DNA of 64,000 nucleotides. Origin: Paramicrobacterium agarici (lineage in GTDB: Bacteria > Actinomycetota > Actinomycetes > Actinomycetales > Microbacteriaceae). Shown here piece after piece: positions 1,642-63,849 of the stretch. Position 1 is the first letter of the stretch; every line of letters begins with the position of its first letter. Under the pieces are notes generated by a model. That model was given only the letters and a program-made list of their open reading frames with translations, was not told the DNA's origin and made no database searches. The stretch lies in contig NZ_PDJE01000001.1 in assembly GCF_002563955.1 (NCBI RefSeq), positions 1,984,001 to 2,048,000 on the forward strand, written 5' to 3'. The position numbers and the translations under genes were made by a program.

Positions 1642-2966
1642 GCGTCAAGGACTTTCTGCTGCCCGACCTCGGTGAGGGGTTGACCGAGTCGGAGATTGCC
1701 AGTTGGAAGATCGCCGAAGGCGACACAGTGAGCGTGAATCAGGTGATCGCCGAGATCGAGACGGCCAAGGCCCTTGTGGAGCTGCCGTCGCCGTTCGACG
1801 GGACGATCCGCACGCTCTACGCCGAAGAAGGGGCGACCGTGCAGGTCGGCGAGCCCCTCATCGCATTCGAACTCGACGGCGACGATGATGAACCTGGTGA
1901 CGCACCGCCGGAACGCGAACCTGTGCTCGTCGGGTACGGACCGAAGAAGGAGCGCAGCGCAGCGCCGCGACGCAGACGACGTTCGTGGGAGGGCGAAAAG
2001 ACGCAAGCACCCGATCAGCGTCCGGATGCCTCTGCTGCGCCCGCATCCACGACCGAAGCACCTGCCTCCGATGCGCCCGAGACGCCGAATCGTCCTGAGC
2101 GCCCCCGAACGACGCCGCCCGTGCGCATTTTCGCGCGGGAGATCGGCGTCGACCTGACAGAGATCGAGGGAACCGGGTCTGACGGCCTCATCACTCGCTC
2201 CGACGTGCAGCGTGCCGCGCACGCAGCGCAGCCCGAAGCCAGGCAGAGCGTGCGGGAGACAGCGCCCGAGCGAGGCGAAGTGCGCACTCCGATCAAGGGG
2301 GTGCGCAAGGCGACCGCCGCGGCGATGGCGTCGTCTGCCTTCACGGCGCCGCACGCGAGCGAATTCATCACGATCGACGTCACGCGCACGGGCGAGCTTG
2401 TCGCACGTCTGCGGACGCAGCATCCCGATACCCGCATCACGATCATGACGATCGTGTCGCAGGCGATGCTGCTGGCCGCAAAGCGCACGCCGTCGGTGAA
2501 CGCCCACTGGGATGACGAGGCTCAGGAGATCGTCGAGTACGGCTACGTGAATCTGGGTGTGGCAGCGGCGACGCAGCGCGGCCTCGTGGTCCCGGTGGTG
2601 AAGGATGCTGACACGTTGGGGCTTCTCGAGCTCGCGGACGCCATCTCGGCACTCGTATCGACTGCTCGCGACGGCCGTACGCAGCCGGAAGACATGAGCG
2701 GCGGCACGATGACGCTCACGAACGTGGGAGTGTTCGGGGTAGACGCGGGAACGCCGATTCTCACGCCGGGACAGTCGTCGATTCTCGCGGCAGGCGCGGT
2801 GCGTCGTCGCCCGTGGGAATACGACGGCGAGATCGCGCTGCGCGACGTCATGACCCTGAGCCTGTCGTTCGATCACCGCATCGTCGATGGCGAGCAGGCA
2901 TCCCGCTTTCTCGTCGACGTGTCGCGCGTGCTGGAGGACCCGGGCACGGCACTCACTCTGCTCTGA
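1638..2966 (+). CDS. bkdC: Branched-chain 2-oxoacid dehydrogenase E2, dihydrolipoamide acyltransferase
   Basis: This is the E2 core of the complex. It accepts the acyl group on lipoate and transfers it to CoA. From the ATG at 1638 it has 442 residues. A single N-terminal lipoyl domain (about 3-80) has the lipoylated lysine at K44 in ETAKA. A charged, proline/alanine-rich linker follows, then a peripheral subunit-binding domain (about 155-195, starting VRIFAREIGVDL). The C-terminal catalytic domain has SFDHRIVDGE with the HxxxDG motif. The start was chosen because a GGAGG lies about 9 nt upstream and the ATG overlaps the bkdB stop. An open frame continues upstream but only as a shadow. No E3 gene lies nearby, so E3 must be supplied from elsewhere. 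Confidence 0.93.
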   Translation: MSVKDFLLPDLGEGLTESEIASWKIAEGDTVSVNQVIAEIETAKALVELPSPFDGTIRTLYAEEGATVQVGEPLIAFELDGDDDEPGDAPPEREPVLVGYGPKKERSAAPRRRRRSWEGEKTQAPDQRPDASAAPASTTEAPASDAPETPNRPERPRTTPPVRIFAREIGVDLTEIEGTGSDGLITRSDVQRAAHAAQPEARQSVRETAPERGEVRTPIKGVRKATAAAMASSAFTAPHASEFITIDVTRTGELVARLRTQHPDTRITIMTIVSQAMLLAAKRTPSVNAHWDDEAQEIVEYGYVNLGVAAATQRGLVVPVVKDADTLGLLELADAISALVSTARDGRTQPEDMSGGTMTLTNVGVFGVDAGTPILTPGQSSILAAGAVRRRPWEYDGEIALRDVMTLSLSFDHRIVDGEQASRFLVDVSRVLEDPGTALTLL

Positions 2967-47934: not shown

Positions 47935-47940
47935 TATTCT
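47935..47940 (+). promoter_or_regulatory. -10 hexamer TATTCT, promoter of the arginine operon leader
   Basis: TATTCT is followed by exactly 6 nt and the ATG of the arginine-rich leader peptide, so the mRNA probably starts at or next to that ATG. No convincing -35 is visible. Confidence 0.6.
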
Positions 47941-47946
47941 CGACGC

Positions 47947-48051
47947 ATGACGTCCGCTTCCCGTTCGCTCGGCCTCTTCTCGGCAGTGCGCGGGCTGCGT
48001 CGACGTCGGCGCGCCGTGCGAATCTCGGCGACGCCTGTCGTGCACCTGTGA
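47947..48051 (+). CDS. Predicted arginine-rich leader peptide of the arg operon (34 aa)
   Basis: This short frame begins at the ATG placed 6 nt after TATTCT and ends at TGA 48049-48051, 61 nt before argC. It encodes 34 residues with eight arginines. Five are consecutive, R18-R22 (codons CGT CGA CGT CGG CGC at 47998-48012), and R25 follows. Such a run directly upstream of arginine biosynthesis genes is the hallmark of a leader peptide that senses charged tRNA-Arg. It has no Shine-Dalgarno, so translation would be leaderless. A 68-codon frame in another phase (GTG 47910 to TGA 48116) overlaps it but starts upstream of the promoter. Function is inferred. Confidence 0.65.
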   Translation: MTSASRSLGLFSAVRGLRRRRRAVRISATPVVHL

Positions 48052-48098
48052 TCTGGTCACGAGTGGGCGCCGCCGACACCAGCGCAGACCGCCCACTC
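48005..48098 (+). promoter_or_regulatory. Mutually exclusive RNA stems upstream of argC (candidate attenuator)
   Basis: Stem A pairs GAGTGGGCG (48061-48069) with CGCCCACTC (48090-48098): 9 bp, perfect, ending 3-4 nt before the argC ribosome site AAGG. Stem B pairs the arginine-codon segment 48005-48015 with 48066-48077: 11 bp with one bulged base. The stems share 48066-48069 and cannot form together. There is no T-tract after stem A, so classical intrinsic termination is not shown. Confidence 0.5.
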
Positions 48099-48112
48099 AA
48101 TAAGGTAGAAGC

Positions 48113-49156
48113 ATGACATTCACCGTTGCCGTCGCAGGCGCTTCCGGGTACGCCGGAGGAGAACTGCTGCGGTTGCTCGCGGAGCACCCGGAGTTTGAGA
48201 TCACGACAGTCACGGCACACTCGAATTCCGGAGCGCCTCTCGTCGCGCTGCAGCCTCATTTGCGTTCGCTGCGCCACCTCACGCTCGTCGACACGACGCC
48301 CGAGCGTCTTTCCGGGCACGACATCGTCTTCGTCGCCCTTCCTCATGGAAAGTCCGGAGAGCTCACCGCGCACCTTGACGAAGAAACCCTCGTTGTCGAC
48401 TGCGGGGCAGATCATCGTCTCGAGTCAGGCACCGACTGGAGTGCCTTTTACGGCGGCGAGCATTTCGGAGCGTGGGCCTACGGCGTGCCAGAGCTCATCG
48501 TCGGAGACGGCCGTCAGCGTGACGTGCTCGCGGGCGCTCGCCGCATCGCAGCCCCTGGCTGCAACGCGAGCACCGTCGAACTCTCACTCGCTCCCGGCGT
48601 GGCTTCGGGAGTCATCGAATCGACCGACATCGTCTCTGTGCTCGCGGTCGGACCGTCCGGGGCAGGGAAGAGCTTGAAGCCGCATCTTCTCGCGGCTGAG
48701 GTTCTCGGCACCGCGAACCCGTATGCGGTCGGAGGAACCCACCGTCACATCCCGGAGATTGCACAAGGGCTCCGCTGGGCGGGTGCCACTGACGTGAGCA
48801 TCTCGTTCACTCCCGTGATCGTCCCGATGTCGCGCGGAATCCTCGCAACGTCGACAGCGCGCATCGCGCCGGGCGCGTCCGCAGCGCAGATCCGCGAGGC
48901 GTGGGAGACCGCGTACGCCGATGAGCCGTTTGTCCAGGTGCTCCCCGACGGGCAGGTGCCCCGCACGGCCGACGTGCTGGGAGCCAACACCGCGCTGATG
49001 GGCATCGCCGTCGACGAGGCCTCGGGACGCGTCGTCGTCGTGACCGCCGTCGACAACCTCGCGAAGGGAACGGCCGGAGCAGCGATCCAGTCGGCGAACA
49101 TCGCACTCGGACTGCCCGAGCAGACGGGCCTTACTGTGAACGGAGTAGCGCCGTGA
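48113..49156 (+). CDS. argC: N-acetyl-gamma-glutamyl-phosphate reductase
   Basis: This is the third step of arginine synthesis: NADPH-dependent reduction of N-acetylglutamyl phosphate. The 347-residue protein has the Rossmann motif [14 protein letters not shown]. The catalytic cysteine C150 is in [22 protein letters not shown] and [13 protein letters not shown] are family motifs. AAGG lies about 8 nt before the ATG. It is the first structural gene of argCJBDFH and overlaps argJ by GTGA. Confidence 0.95.
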
Positions 49157-50304
49157 GCGTGACAGCACCTCAGGGATTCACCGCAGCCGGTGTGCCGGCG
49201 GGGCTCAAAGGCACGGGCGATCGTGACATCGCGCTCGTCGTCAACACCGGCCCGCGTCAGGCTGGAGCAGCCGTCTTCACAAGCAACCGCGCGGTGGCAA
49301 ACCCGATCATCTGGTCGCGACAGGCAATTCTCGACGGCGTCGTCTCTGCGGTCGTGCTCAACTCCGGGGGAGCGAATTGCTTCACGGGCGAGCAGGGCTT
49401 CCAAGCCACCCACGCGACCGCCGAGGCTGTCGGCACCGCGGTCGGCGTCTCAACTGGCGACGTGCTTGTCTGCTCCACAGGGTTGATCGGCGATCAGTTG
49501 GACGTCGCGAAGATCGAGGCAGGGGTGACGGATGCTGCCAGCCAGCTGTCCGCCGACGGCGGGCTGGCCGCCGCAGAAGCGATCATGACGACGGATACCC
49601 ACGCCAAAACCGTCGTTCGCGAGACGGACGGCTATACGATCGGCGGAATGGCGAAGGGCGCGGGAATGCTCGCCCCGGGGCTCGCGACAATGCTCGTGGT
49701 GATCACGACCGATGCTGATCTCGATGCTCGTGCTCTCGACAGAGCGCTGCGTGCGGCGACGCGACTGACCTTCGACAGGCTCGATTCCGACGGCTGCATG
49801 TCGACGAATGACCAAGTGACGTTGCTCGCGTCCGGCGCATCCGGAATCGTCCCCGATGAATCGGCCTTCACCGAGATGCTCACCGACGTGTGCCGCGACT
49901 TGGCCGGTCAACTCCAACGCGACGCCGAGGGAGCCAGCCACGATATCGCCATCACCGTGACCGAAGCGGCGAGCGAAGACGACGCTCTCGAAGTCGGACG
50001 ATCTGTTGCGCGCAACAACCTCTTCAAGGCGGCGATCTTCGGCAACGATCCCAACTGGGGCCGCGTTCTGGCCGCGATCGGCACGACGTCGGCCGAATTC
50101 GATCCCTATCGGGTCGATGTCTCGATGAATGGAGTCCGGGTATGCCACGCGGGCGGTCCGGACGAGCCGCGGGAGCGCGTTGACCTCAGCGGGCGCGAGT
50201 GCTCGGTGCTGATTGAGCTCCACGCCGGAACTGCATCCGCGACGATCCTGACCAACGATCTCACGCACGACTACGTTCACGAGAACAGCGCCTACTCGAG
50301 CTGA
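49153..50304 (+). CDS. argJ: Bifunctional ornithine acetyltransferase / N-acetylglutamate synthase
   Basis: ArgJ moves the acetyl group from N-acetylornithine to glutamate, closing the acetyl cycle, and in many bacteria also makes N-acetylglutamate from acetyl-CoA. The 383-residue precursor self-cleaves before the nucleophilic threonine T179 in [31 protein letters not shown] is the second signature. The GTG start overlaps the argC stop. Presence of ArgJ implies the recycling pathway rather than ArgE. Confidence 0.94.
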
Positions 50305-50306
50305 CG

Positions 50307-51215
50307 ATGACGACACACGCAACTCAACTCTCCCGTGAGGTGGCTCAAGCCAGAGCCGCGACGCTCATCGATACGCTGCCATGGCTCACTCGCTATCGCG
50401 GCGCCGTCGTCGTGATCAAATTCGGGGGCAACGCGATGGTCTCCGACGAGCTCAAAACCGCCTTTGCCGAAGATATCGTCTACCTGCATCACGTCGGGTT
50501 GCATCCGGTCGTCGTTCACGGCGGCGGTCCGCAGATCTCGCGCGCACTGACTGATGCCGGCATTCACAGTGAGTTCCGCGGCGGATACCGCGTGACCACG
50601 CCCGAAGCGATGGACGTGGTTCGCCACGTGCTGCGCGACGAGGTCAATCGTGAGATCGTGCAGCTCCTCAACGCGCATGGCGATCTGGCGATCGGGCTTT
50701 CGGGAGAAGACGCTGGCCTGTTCACCGGCGCAAAGCGCGGGGCGGTTGTCGATGGAGCCGAGATTGACCTCGGCCGTGTGGGCGACATCATCGATGTCGA
50801 TCCGGCTGTCGTGCGCAGCGCGATCGAAGCCGGACGCATCCCCGTCGTCTCATCGATAGCGCCTGAGCACGGCGATGTGTCGCGCCCCCTGAACGTCAAT
50901 GCGGATGCTGCCGCCGGCGCACTCGCGGCGGGAATGACGGCGTCGAAGCTCATCGTTCTGACCGACGTGGCCGGGCTCTACAGCGATTGGCCCGACACGA
51001 GCTCCCTCGTGACGAGCATCACGGCAGACGAGCTTCGCGCGCTCATGCCGAAGCTTGAGGCCGGAATGATTCCAAAGATGTCGGCGTGCCTGACCGCGAT
51101 CGACGGAGGAGTTGAGGCCGCGTCGATCATCGACGGACGCGTGCACCATTCGATTCTTCTCGAGCTCTTCACGGGCCCGGGCGTCGGAACCGAAGTTGTA
51201 AAGGAGAGCAGATGA
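50307..51215 (+). CDS. argB: Acetylglutamate kinase
   Basis: This amino-acid kinase phosphorylates N-acetylglutamate and is the usual arginine feedback target. The 302-residue protein has [23 protein letters not shown] and [46 protein letters not shown] forms the nucleotide site. The N-terminal helical extension ([21 protein letters not shown]) is typical of arginine-sensitive hexameric enzymes. ATG two bases after argJ; overlaps argD by ATGA. Confidence 0.95.
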
Positions 51216-52396
51216 CCACGTGGCGTGAACGCGTCGAACGCGACATGATGCACACTTTCGGACCGAGCCAGGCGCTGCTCGTGCGCGGTGAGGGGTGCTA
51301 CGTCGAAGACGTCGACGGCACGCGCTACCTCGATTTCCTCGGCGGCATCGCGGTCAACGTGCTCGGGCACGCGCACCCCGTTGTCGTCGAAGCCGTGTCA
51401 CAGCAGGCCCAAGCCCTCATTCATGTGTCGAATTACTTCTCGACACCGCCACAGCTTGAGCTCGCAGCGCGCTTGAAGCGCCTCTCTGGCGCAGGCGAGT
51501 CAGGACGCGTCTTCTTCGCAAACTCCGGTACCGAGGCGAACGAGGGGGCGTTCAAGCTCGCTCGCCTCAACGCGGGCGCGGACGGAAAGCGCACACGCAT
51601 TCTGTCCATGACCAACTCGTTCCACGGCCGCAGCATGGGTGCGCTCGCTCTCACAGGCAAGCCGTCGATGCACACAGATTTCGAGCCGCTGCCGGGCGGC
51701 GTCGAGTACATCGATACGACCATTGCCGCGCTTGAGCAGGCCATGGACGATCGAGTCGCCGCAATCATCGTCGAGCCGATCAAGGGCGAGGCCGGGGTGC
51801 TCGAGGTTCCCGAGGGGTTCCTCGAGCGCGCGCGCGAACTCACTCGCGACGTCGGCGCGCTCCTGATGATCGACGAAATCCAGACCGGTGTGGGGCGCAC
51901 CGGTCAGTGGTTCGGATTCCAGGCGCACGGCATCACACCTGACGTGGTGACCGTGGCGAAGGGAATCGCCGGCGGTGTTCCGATGGGCGCGATCATCACG
52001 TTTGGCGAAGCCAGTGAACTTTTCCACCCCGGACAGCACGGGACCACGTTCGGTGGAAACCCGCTCGCGACCGCGACGGCGAACGCTGTTCTCGGCGAGA
52101 TCGAGTCCGCGGGGCTTCTCGAGAATGCGGCCCGACGCGGCGAGCAGCTCCGCTCAGAGATCACGGCGATCGGCTCCCCGCTCGTCGGGGGCGTGCGCGG
52201 GCGCGGGCTGCTGCTCGGCATCGAGCTCACCCAGCCGGTTGCGTCCGAGCTTCATGCTGCCGCGCTCTCGGCCGGCCTCATCGTCAACGCGCCGAACCCC
52301 GAAACCATCCGGCTCGCACCGCCTCTCATCATCGGCGACGCCGAGATCGCCGATTTTGTAGAGCGCTTCCGGTCAGCGCTCTCCGCCCTTGACTGA
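51212..52396 (+). CDS. argD: Acetylornithine aminotransferase
   Basis: This 394-residue class III PLP aminotransferase makes N-acetylornithine. [29 protein letters not shown] and [17 protein letters not shown] are visible, and the PLP lysine K250 is in [15 protein letters not shown]. The ATG overlaps the argB stop. Confidence 0.94.
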
Positions 52397-52418
52397 TCGC
52401 AACCTTCGAAAGAGCACA

Positions 52419-54786
<2,368 letters not shown>

Positions 54787-58578: not shown

Positions 58579-63621
<5,043 letters not shown>

Positions 63622-63721
63622 CAACAACATCTGATGTTTCGCGTCCACTTTGTGGTTCCTGACGCACGGCAGGAACAAACAACACACCCCACGGTGTGTT
63701 CACATATTGCGTCCATGATTG
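63622..63721 (+). other. 23S-5S spacer
   Basis: This 100-nt spacer carries the 3' half of the 23S processing stalk (AACAACAT at 63623-63630). No gene is seen. Confidence 0.75.
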
Positions 63722-63838
63722 TTACGGCGGTCATAGCGAGAGGGAAACGCCCGGTCACATTCCGAACCCGGAAGCTAAGGCTCTCAGCGCCGATGGTACT
63801 GCAGGGGGGACCCTGTGGGAGAGTAGGACACCGCCGGA
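63722..63838 (+). rRNA. rrf: 5S ribosomal RNA
   Basis: TTACGGCGGTCATAGCG at the 5' end pairs with CACCGCCGGAC at the 3' end (helix I). The loop sequence GAAACGCCCGGTCACATTCC and CCGAACCCGGAAGCTAAG are conserved. About 117 nt. Confidence 0.95.
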
Positions 63839-63849
63839 CTTAACCTACA

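Follow-up and report, generated by a model that had tools for sequence, protein, structure and literature searches.

Control of bacterial arginine biosynthesis is mainly known as control by ArgR. Leader-peptide attenuation has its classical example in trp, and the fungal arginine attenuator peptide acts as a nascent peptide that stalls the ribosome at high arginine. Leaderless attenuators based on upstream open reading frames (uORFs) with Cys codons were reportedly described in mycobacteria by Canestrari in 2020; in this model, the downstream ribosome-binding site (RBS) is masked or freed by the state of the uORF. Here, the region upstream of argC was analyzed on contig NZ_PDJE01000001.1 of Paramicrobacterium agarici, within a window (the whole stretch of DNA analyzed) of 64,000 nt, in which positions are counted from the first letter. 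The segment 47947–48112 is probably a cis-acting, ribosome-read arginine attenuator of argCJBDFH. In kind, it would be a leader-peptide attenuator, as a variant that is leaderless, lacks a U-tract, has Arg codons in front of arginine genes and belongs to a family in which ArgR was not found.

For the Salmonella orf34-speF leader, the accessible part of PMC6386406 describes that a ribosome stalled at two Arg codons allows the formation of a hairpin just past the stop codon, that pausing at the stop codon prevents it, and that Rho takes part in the control, acting when orf34 is untranslated. The locus analyzed here is similar in having a 34-codon open reading frame (ORF) with consecutive Arg codons and a hairpin near the stop codon, here predicted to form upon Arg-codon pausing and to be blocked by a ribosome at the stop codon. 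It differs, as far as the same part of PMC6386406 goes, in that orf34 has its own Shine–Dalgarno (SD) sequence and a transcript start 516 nt upstream, controls ornithine decarboxylase instead of arginine synthesis, and acts via RNase G decay and RBS masking. Whereas orf34 is DUF2618, the leader peptide gave no match up to E 1 in Pfam, PF10940 included. With the leaderless Cys uORFs of mycobacteria, as covered by the accessible parts of PMC4633059 and PMC1262725, it shares the actinobacterial host, the leaderless start, pathway codons near the end and the lack of a clear terminator, and its −10 element is likewise positioned for a transcript start at the uORF start codon (predicted, from spacing only). 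Unlike these, it concerns arginine, its hairpin is formed from the uORF end, and SD masking was unsupported by folding. An attenuator is also described for ilvB1 of M. tuberculosis (accessible part of PMC13236596). Of the features of such classical attenuators (trp, ilvB1), the operon here is preceded by a short ORF in which codons for the pathway product stand in tandem, with these sensor codons lying upstream; a hairpin between segments 2 and 3 (2:3) is predicted to form upon stalling and to be prevented by a ribosome at the stop codon, and a 3:4 alternative can be drawn in the window and its genus; the missing U-tract, a 3:4 hairpin that is not family-wide and the leaderless start set the locus apart. 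With the fungal peptide it would share uORF-based arginine control of arginine synthesis, the proposed signal here being codon supply instead. Titles and abstract beginnings, in a search that mostly left subscription papers outside, revealed no report of a bacterial operon for arginine biosynthesis with an Arg-codon leader. In the accessible part of a 2005 survey of Actinobacteria (PMC1262725), arginine operons are reported to have no conserved regulatory RNA structure in front of them. A search of the main text of PMC2965389 for the word arginine gave nothing, and the joint mention of argC and a leader peptide in the accessible part of PMC4122931 is unrelated.

The putative leader (all features on the plus strand) was read directly in the window. 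The −10 element TATTCT (47935–47940), with a predicted transcript start at 47947, is followed after 6 nt (CGACGC) by the leader ATG at 47947. The ORF (47947–48051) encodes 34 amino acids with 8 Arg codons and ends with TGA at 48049–48051; five consecutive Arg codons in four spellings (CGT CGA CGT CGG CGC) occupy 47998–48012 in the region termed box 1, and 61 nt (48052–48112) separate the stop codon from the argC ATG at 48113. The coordinates given in the first-pass annotation all proved correct. For comparison, argC was present in 195 of 199 Microbacteriaceae genomes, and upstream stretches were available from 130 of the 195, biased toward closer relatives. These 130 (30 loci and 100 further stretches) were supplemented with 46 named loci to 176, of which L042 and L158 were dropped for a missing argC start anchor. 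A leaderless Arg-rich uORF was present in 100 of the resulting 174 loci before removal of duplicates, which left 148 Microbacteriaceae regions (including L044 from an unclassified actinobacterial bin) and 17 from other families. A uORF was defined by TANNNT 5–8 nt before ATG or GTG, 14–45 codons, at least 5 Arg and a stop codon 40–140 nt before argC. Such a uORF was found in 94 of the 148 distinct Microbacteriaceae regions, where 20 rounds of dinucleotide shuffling yielded 0.4 on average and 2 at most, and in none of the 17 argC upstream regions of other families. Spacing from TANNNT to the start codon was 6 nt in 75 leaders, 7 nt in 17 and 8 nt in 2, and 62 of the 94 uORFs contained a run of at least three Arg. 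Carriers include Mycetocola, Plantibacter, Leifsonia, Salinibacterium, Microbacterium and Pseudolysinimonas, among others; Cryobacterium lactosi, four Leucobacter and one Subtercola are among the named loci without uORF. Much of the family has kept the proposed leaderless Arg-codon leader before argC, as regards its position, its start signal and its richness in Arg.

A covariance model of the leader matched 92 of the 199 Microbacteriaceae genomes at E 0.01, representing 39 of 78 genera. Strong matches (E 1.6e-4 or better) were obtained in 89 genomes of 38 genera, one each, and 85 of these 89 end at the argC start, the other 4 not being placeable as the argC position is not listed. The three remaining genomes gave weak matches only, two of them away from argC; of the five weak matches overall (E 0.001–0.01), four lie away from argC and one is unplaced. 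The ArgR domains PF01316 and PF02863 were found in 0 of the 199 genomes, with positive controls in 9 and 8 of 14 genomes. ArgR gave no match in the window's own genome either, which leaves the locus outside the class of ArgR-regulated operons. In a sample of 248 genomes of the order, ArgR was present in 224, and all 20 listed of the 24 genomes without it are Microbacteriaceae. The leader model matched 16 genomes at E 1e-4 in this sample, all in Microbacteriaceae listed without ArgR, and none in the 224 ArgR-bearing genomes under strict filters, by which weak matches may be lost. In these samples, the leader is confined to the ArgR-less family, yet this is one lineage and not many independent events. 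Since the leader occurs in just under half of the sampled relatives and ArgR was not found, the ribosome itself probably senses arginine supply in these carriers. An Arg-codon leader across a family without detected ArgR would show the exchange of one kind of control for another. Just under half of the sampled Microbacteriaceae would gain a concrete, easily tested arginine switch, and the locus would provide a natural test case for attenuation without a U-tract in Actinobacteria.

Later counts refer to 92 distinct leaders with both hairpin boxes (boxes 2 and 3, see below) anchored, or to the 87 of these whose box 3 scores well; a script placed the anchors, a few of them incorrectly (L051). The uORFs are 18–39 codons long, with N-terminal halves that are dissimilar between genera and an Arg-rich C-terminal end that is kept. 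In 91 distinct uORFs, Arg codons made up 705 of 2637 codons in frame 0 and numbered 347 and 430 in the other frames, a comparison biased toward frame 0 by the selection for at least 5 Arg. Box 2 lies in the uORF reading frame in 75 of 87 leaders. In these 75, the Arg frequency at codons −9, −8 and −7 from the conserved stop position is 0.63, 0.63 and 0.69, and at codon −2 it is 0.99 (74 of 75), the baseline in eight neighbouring proteins being about 0.06. In the 87 leaders, 181 of 671 Arg codons are CGA, compared with 29 of 249 in eight neighbouring genes. Codon −2 (window 48019–48021) is CGA in all 38 aligned leaders, though this codon is minor in the neighbouring genes; it may slow the ribosome or may be kept for its sequence. 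The mostly conserved frame and the Arg-rich C-terminus would also be expected of a small Arg-rich protein acting in trans, an explanation that is barely credible given the unlike N-terminal halves, the range of 18–39 codons, the lack of any match of the peptide to Pfam and NCBIfam families, and strong model matches that occur once per genome and, where placeable, at argC (85 of 89).

Three boxes recur in the leaders: box 1, which is the Arg run and frequently reads CTGCGTCGACGCC; box 2, located where the uORF ends, either CGA..CTAGGCGACGC with the stop codon inside or CGA..TCGGCGACGC read through to a later stop codon; and box 3, GGCGUCGCCG-like, which ends 36–43 nt before argC (central 80%; median 39). 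Boxes 2 and 3 form the conserved 2:3 hairpin, located at 48025–48076 in the window (−30.5 kcal/mol for 48026–48076), which includes the stop codon 48049–48051 and is the predicted ON structure. Across leaders, it measures 44–63 nt (central 80%) and contains 15–23 pairs (central 90%). Compared with dinucleotide shuffles, the whole segment from box 2 to box 3 gave a mean z of −3.75 (87 leaders); the corresponding means were −0.93 for the segment from box 3 to the SD, −0.54 for the uORF and −0.80 for an upstream control. When the ends were kept and only the interior was shuffled, the mean z was −2.62 for the 87 hairpins vs −0.14 for 103 chance GGCG..CGCC segments of like length, a difference whose tiny p-value is overstated because the leaders are related by descent. 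The closing helix was part of the minimum-energy fold in 74 of 87 isolated segments vs 50 of 87 after interior shuffling. Hairpin interiors differ strongly between clades but still pair, e.g. in L059, L060 and L062. A duplex test with long windows, in which partners were swapped between genomes, gave −35.3 for own and −34.8 for swapped partners on average and was dropped as uninformative, because the windows were too long and GC-rich.

The 2:3 hairpin was not among the two stems that the first-pass annotation had named as key structures, although it is the most conserved. The first of these stems, 48061–48069 with 48090–48098, was confirmed in the window as a perfect 9 bp helix (GAGTGGGCG/CGCCCACTC) and corresponds to the competing 3:4 hairpin (48061–48098, −19.6 kcal/mol, no U-tract). 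It is 9 bp long in the five sampled members of the genus and patchy elsewhere. The second, 48005–48015 with 48066–48077, exists in the window with one base unpaired, because 11 nt face 12; in an isolated fold of 47998–48080, seven of its pairs enclose the 1:2 helix and the inner part of the 2:3 hairpin. Family-wide, this 1:3 type of pairing did not hold up, averaging 0.04 bp in the absence of a ribosome and 0.48 bp when the stop codon is occupied by one. An alternative 1:2 hairpin (48008–48035; fold of 48005–48035, −15.7 kcal/mol) was drawn in the window only. As the 1:2 and 3:4 hairpins overlap 2:3 on either side, the textbook set of 1:2, 2:3 and 3:4 can be drawn, minus the U-tract. The first-pass interpretation is partly supported: the leaderless Arg-codon leader is conserved, and the stems originally put forward for it are not the family-wide ones.

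In the proposed mechanism, transcription would start at the leader ATG and the ribosome would load straight onto this 5′ end. When charged tRNA-Arg is scarce, the ribosome would stall on the Arg run and cover box 1, leaving box 2 free to pair with box 3 in the hairpin 48025–48076 of about 30 kcal/mol, and transcription would continue into argC. With ample arginine, the ribosome would reach the stop codon (inside the hairpin here, at box 2 in many relatives) and the hairpin would form too late; box 3 and the C-rich stretch behind it would then be exposed and the operon shut off, most likely by Rho, with a contribution of the 3:4 stem in this genus. Comparison and folding support the conserved ORF, the start signal, the Arg run, the hairpin, the mutually exclusive folds and the failure to find ArgR in the family; transcript start, stalling, direction of the response and shut-off step are what we infer from them. 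The 92 leaders were folded with no ribosome, with a ribosome on the Arg run, or with a ribosome at the stop codon, the ribosome being imposed as a mask. Pairing of 2:3 averaged 4.24, 3.70 and 0.07 bp in these three states, pairing of box 3 with segment 4 averaged 2.15, 2.53 and 4.73 bp, and pairing of box 3 with argC codons 0.27, 0.38 and 1.74 bp. The drop to 0.07 bp results largely from the imposed mask, so that this is a geometry check and not an independent proof. The conserved 2:3 hairpin eases a paradox raised in the first-pass annotation, in which stalling on the Arg codons would block the second stem and favour the first: a ribosome stalled on the Arg run leaves 2:3 free, and one at the stop codon blocks it.

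The same sensor could also work with opposite logic, 2:3 being the OFF structure that a ribosome held on the final Arg codons (−3, −2) breaks, turning argC on, and that refolds with ample arginine. This would fit codon −2, which encodes Arg in 74 of the 75 leaders with box 2 in frame and is an invariant CGA in the 38 aligned sequences, and sensor codons near the stop codon are likewise described for the mycobacterial Cys leaders in the accessible parts of the sources cited above. It is nevertheless unlikely, as the peak of the Arg run lies at −9 to −7, from where a stalled ribosome would miss box 2 (with an assumed footprint), and as the hairpin, ending 36–43 nt before argC, covers no SD and is not followed by a U-tract in the window. 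The CGA at −2 may, moreover, be kept for its sequence, because the pheT end reads ERF there. The attenuator in which 2:3 is ON is thus preferred; its sensor and hairpin are well supported by comparison, and the direction and the shut-off step are presumed.

Several results weigh against it. Full-length folds of the window leader (L047, leader plus 36 nt of argC) gave 0.0 bp of 2:3 in all three ribosome states, with box 3 pairing with segment 4 over 11–12 bp in each, because the longer fold with the 3:4 stem dominates; the classical reading therefore requires the RNA to fold as it is being transcribed, ahead of the synthesis of segment 4 and argC. An intrinsic-terminator U-tract was not found, the 3:4 stem in the window being followed by AATAAGG, and this stem is not family-wide, reaching at least 7 bp in 25 of 87 relatives, where shuffles predict about 12. 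The argC start region had an accessibility of 0.50–0.51 in all states with a mean difference of 0.002 (change above 0.05 among the 92 leaders: 23 up, 20 down), and SD masking was set aside as the output in view of this unchanged mean. Arg codon −2 is where a stalled ribosome would cover box 2 and so act in the opposite sense. No strong leader match was obtained in over half of the family genomes sampled, likewise without ArgR. In addition, the core 2:3 pairs hardly vary, and the fifth pair is unpaired in 35 of 92 leaders (A–C in the window). By column, only the sixth of ten pairs was clearly above partner shuffles (80 paired vs 71.2; 92 leaders) and the others exceeded them barely or not at all, the RNAalifold consensus of 38 sequences contained only 4 invariant pairs with a covariation term of 0, and double changes between close relatives kept pairing in a fraction of 0.42, within the slid-control range of 0.11–0.59.

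Further covariation measures were mixed. In the 38-sequence alignment, the 8-bp helix had 94.1% of cells paired, vs 93.0% in shuffles and 16.4–70.1% in slid versions; its covariation score of 0.108 was reached by 7 of 500 shuffles, and six slid versions scored 0.000–0.129, three of them at least 0.094. Double changes in two looser sets kept pairing in fractions of 0.57 and 0.55 vs 0.36–0.44 and 0.33–0.46 in slid controls, and single changes in the looser sets kept pairing less often than controls. As covariation is weak or mixed, the case for the hairpin rests on folding energy instead. The alignment suggested in the first-pass annotation thus showed conserved Arg richness and start position, with compensatory changes in the stems only weakly apparent.

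As to the shut-off step, the stretch before the argC RBS (48076–48099; 50% C, 17% G) is a candidate Rho loading region. Across leaders, the stretch from box 3 to the SD has C 0.46 and G 0.16, and in 80 of 87 its C content is double the G content or more. Between −40 and −13, this ratio is reached in 72 of 87 regions with uORF vs 9 of 53 without. The Rho gene is present in the genome. Such a C-rich stretch would suit Rho and could also be an unstructured ribosome landing site. Since a U-tract is absent and a C-rich, G-poor stretch is present, Rho is the likeliest OFF route, in line with the first-pass remarks that a U-tract is missing and that Rho may be involved. The argC SD core AAGG (48102–48105; AGG invariant and AAGG in at least 90% of the 38 aligned sequences) overlaps TAAGGT (48101–48106), a possible −10 element of a leaderless argC transcript 6 nt before the ATG. 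If argC were mostly transcribed from this promoter of its own, most transcription would bypass the leader, which would then have little effect. Of the 94 regions with uORF, 67 indeed have TANNNT 5–8 nt ahead of argC, as do 39 of 54 uORF-less Microbacteriaceae regions, 33 of these 39 without SD. In regions with uORF, however, AGG is invariant in the alignment and an SD-like sequence is kept in 91 of 94, including the 27 without TANNNT, and conservation of uORF and hairpin would be left unexplained, which makes a bypassed leader very unlikely.

More specifically, the ArgR-less family might read arginine through the ribosome by an Arg-codon attenuator whose hairpin is anti-Rho instead of an antiterminator and whose leader stems from the 3′ end of the neighbouring pheT, a tentative and rather doubtful extension of the attenuator reading. 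In seven loci (L098, L099, L110, L118, L123, L134 and L166), argC is immediately preceded by pheT, with no separate uORF carrying an Arg run; the 3′ end of pheT (approximately ERFGATLRD and stop) supplies box 2 and folds a similar hairpin, with box 3 at 37–45 nt from argC (last 130 nt before argC examined). Box 2 of the leader may descend from the pheT end.

In the window, the leader is followed on the plus strand by argC (48113–49156; TIGR01850 of NCBIfam), the first gene of the operon, argJ (49153–50304), argB (50307–51215), argD (51212–52396), argF (52389–53342) and argH (53329–54786), the starts of the last two being approximate and argJ to argH each having an NCBIfam match above cut-off. 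Upstream lies pheT (NCBIfam), with a gene between pheT and the leader that gave only sub-cut-off matches to helicase models. Searched against Rfam, the leader region gave no family at the gathering score and, at a relaxed threshold, a chance-level match to mir-6790 (E 2.4). With the start rule used for argC, no leaderless ORF was found in the 420 nt upstream of argG in the same genome; argG itself looks leaderless (TAAGAT, 7 nt, ATG; L177, about 1984–2000, minus strand). argC also looks leaderless in uORF-less Microbacteriaceae such as L022, L067, L120 and L155. In other families (L027–L035, L045, L046), TGCATA- or TGTATA-like sequences occur at the argC start, which we take to resemble ARG boxes. 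No tRNA was found in the whole window by ARAGORN, and a complete rRNA operon (16S, 23S, 5S) is located at 58579–63839.
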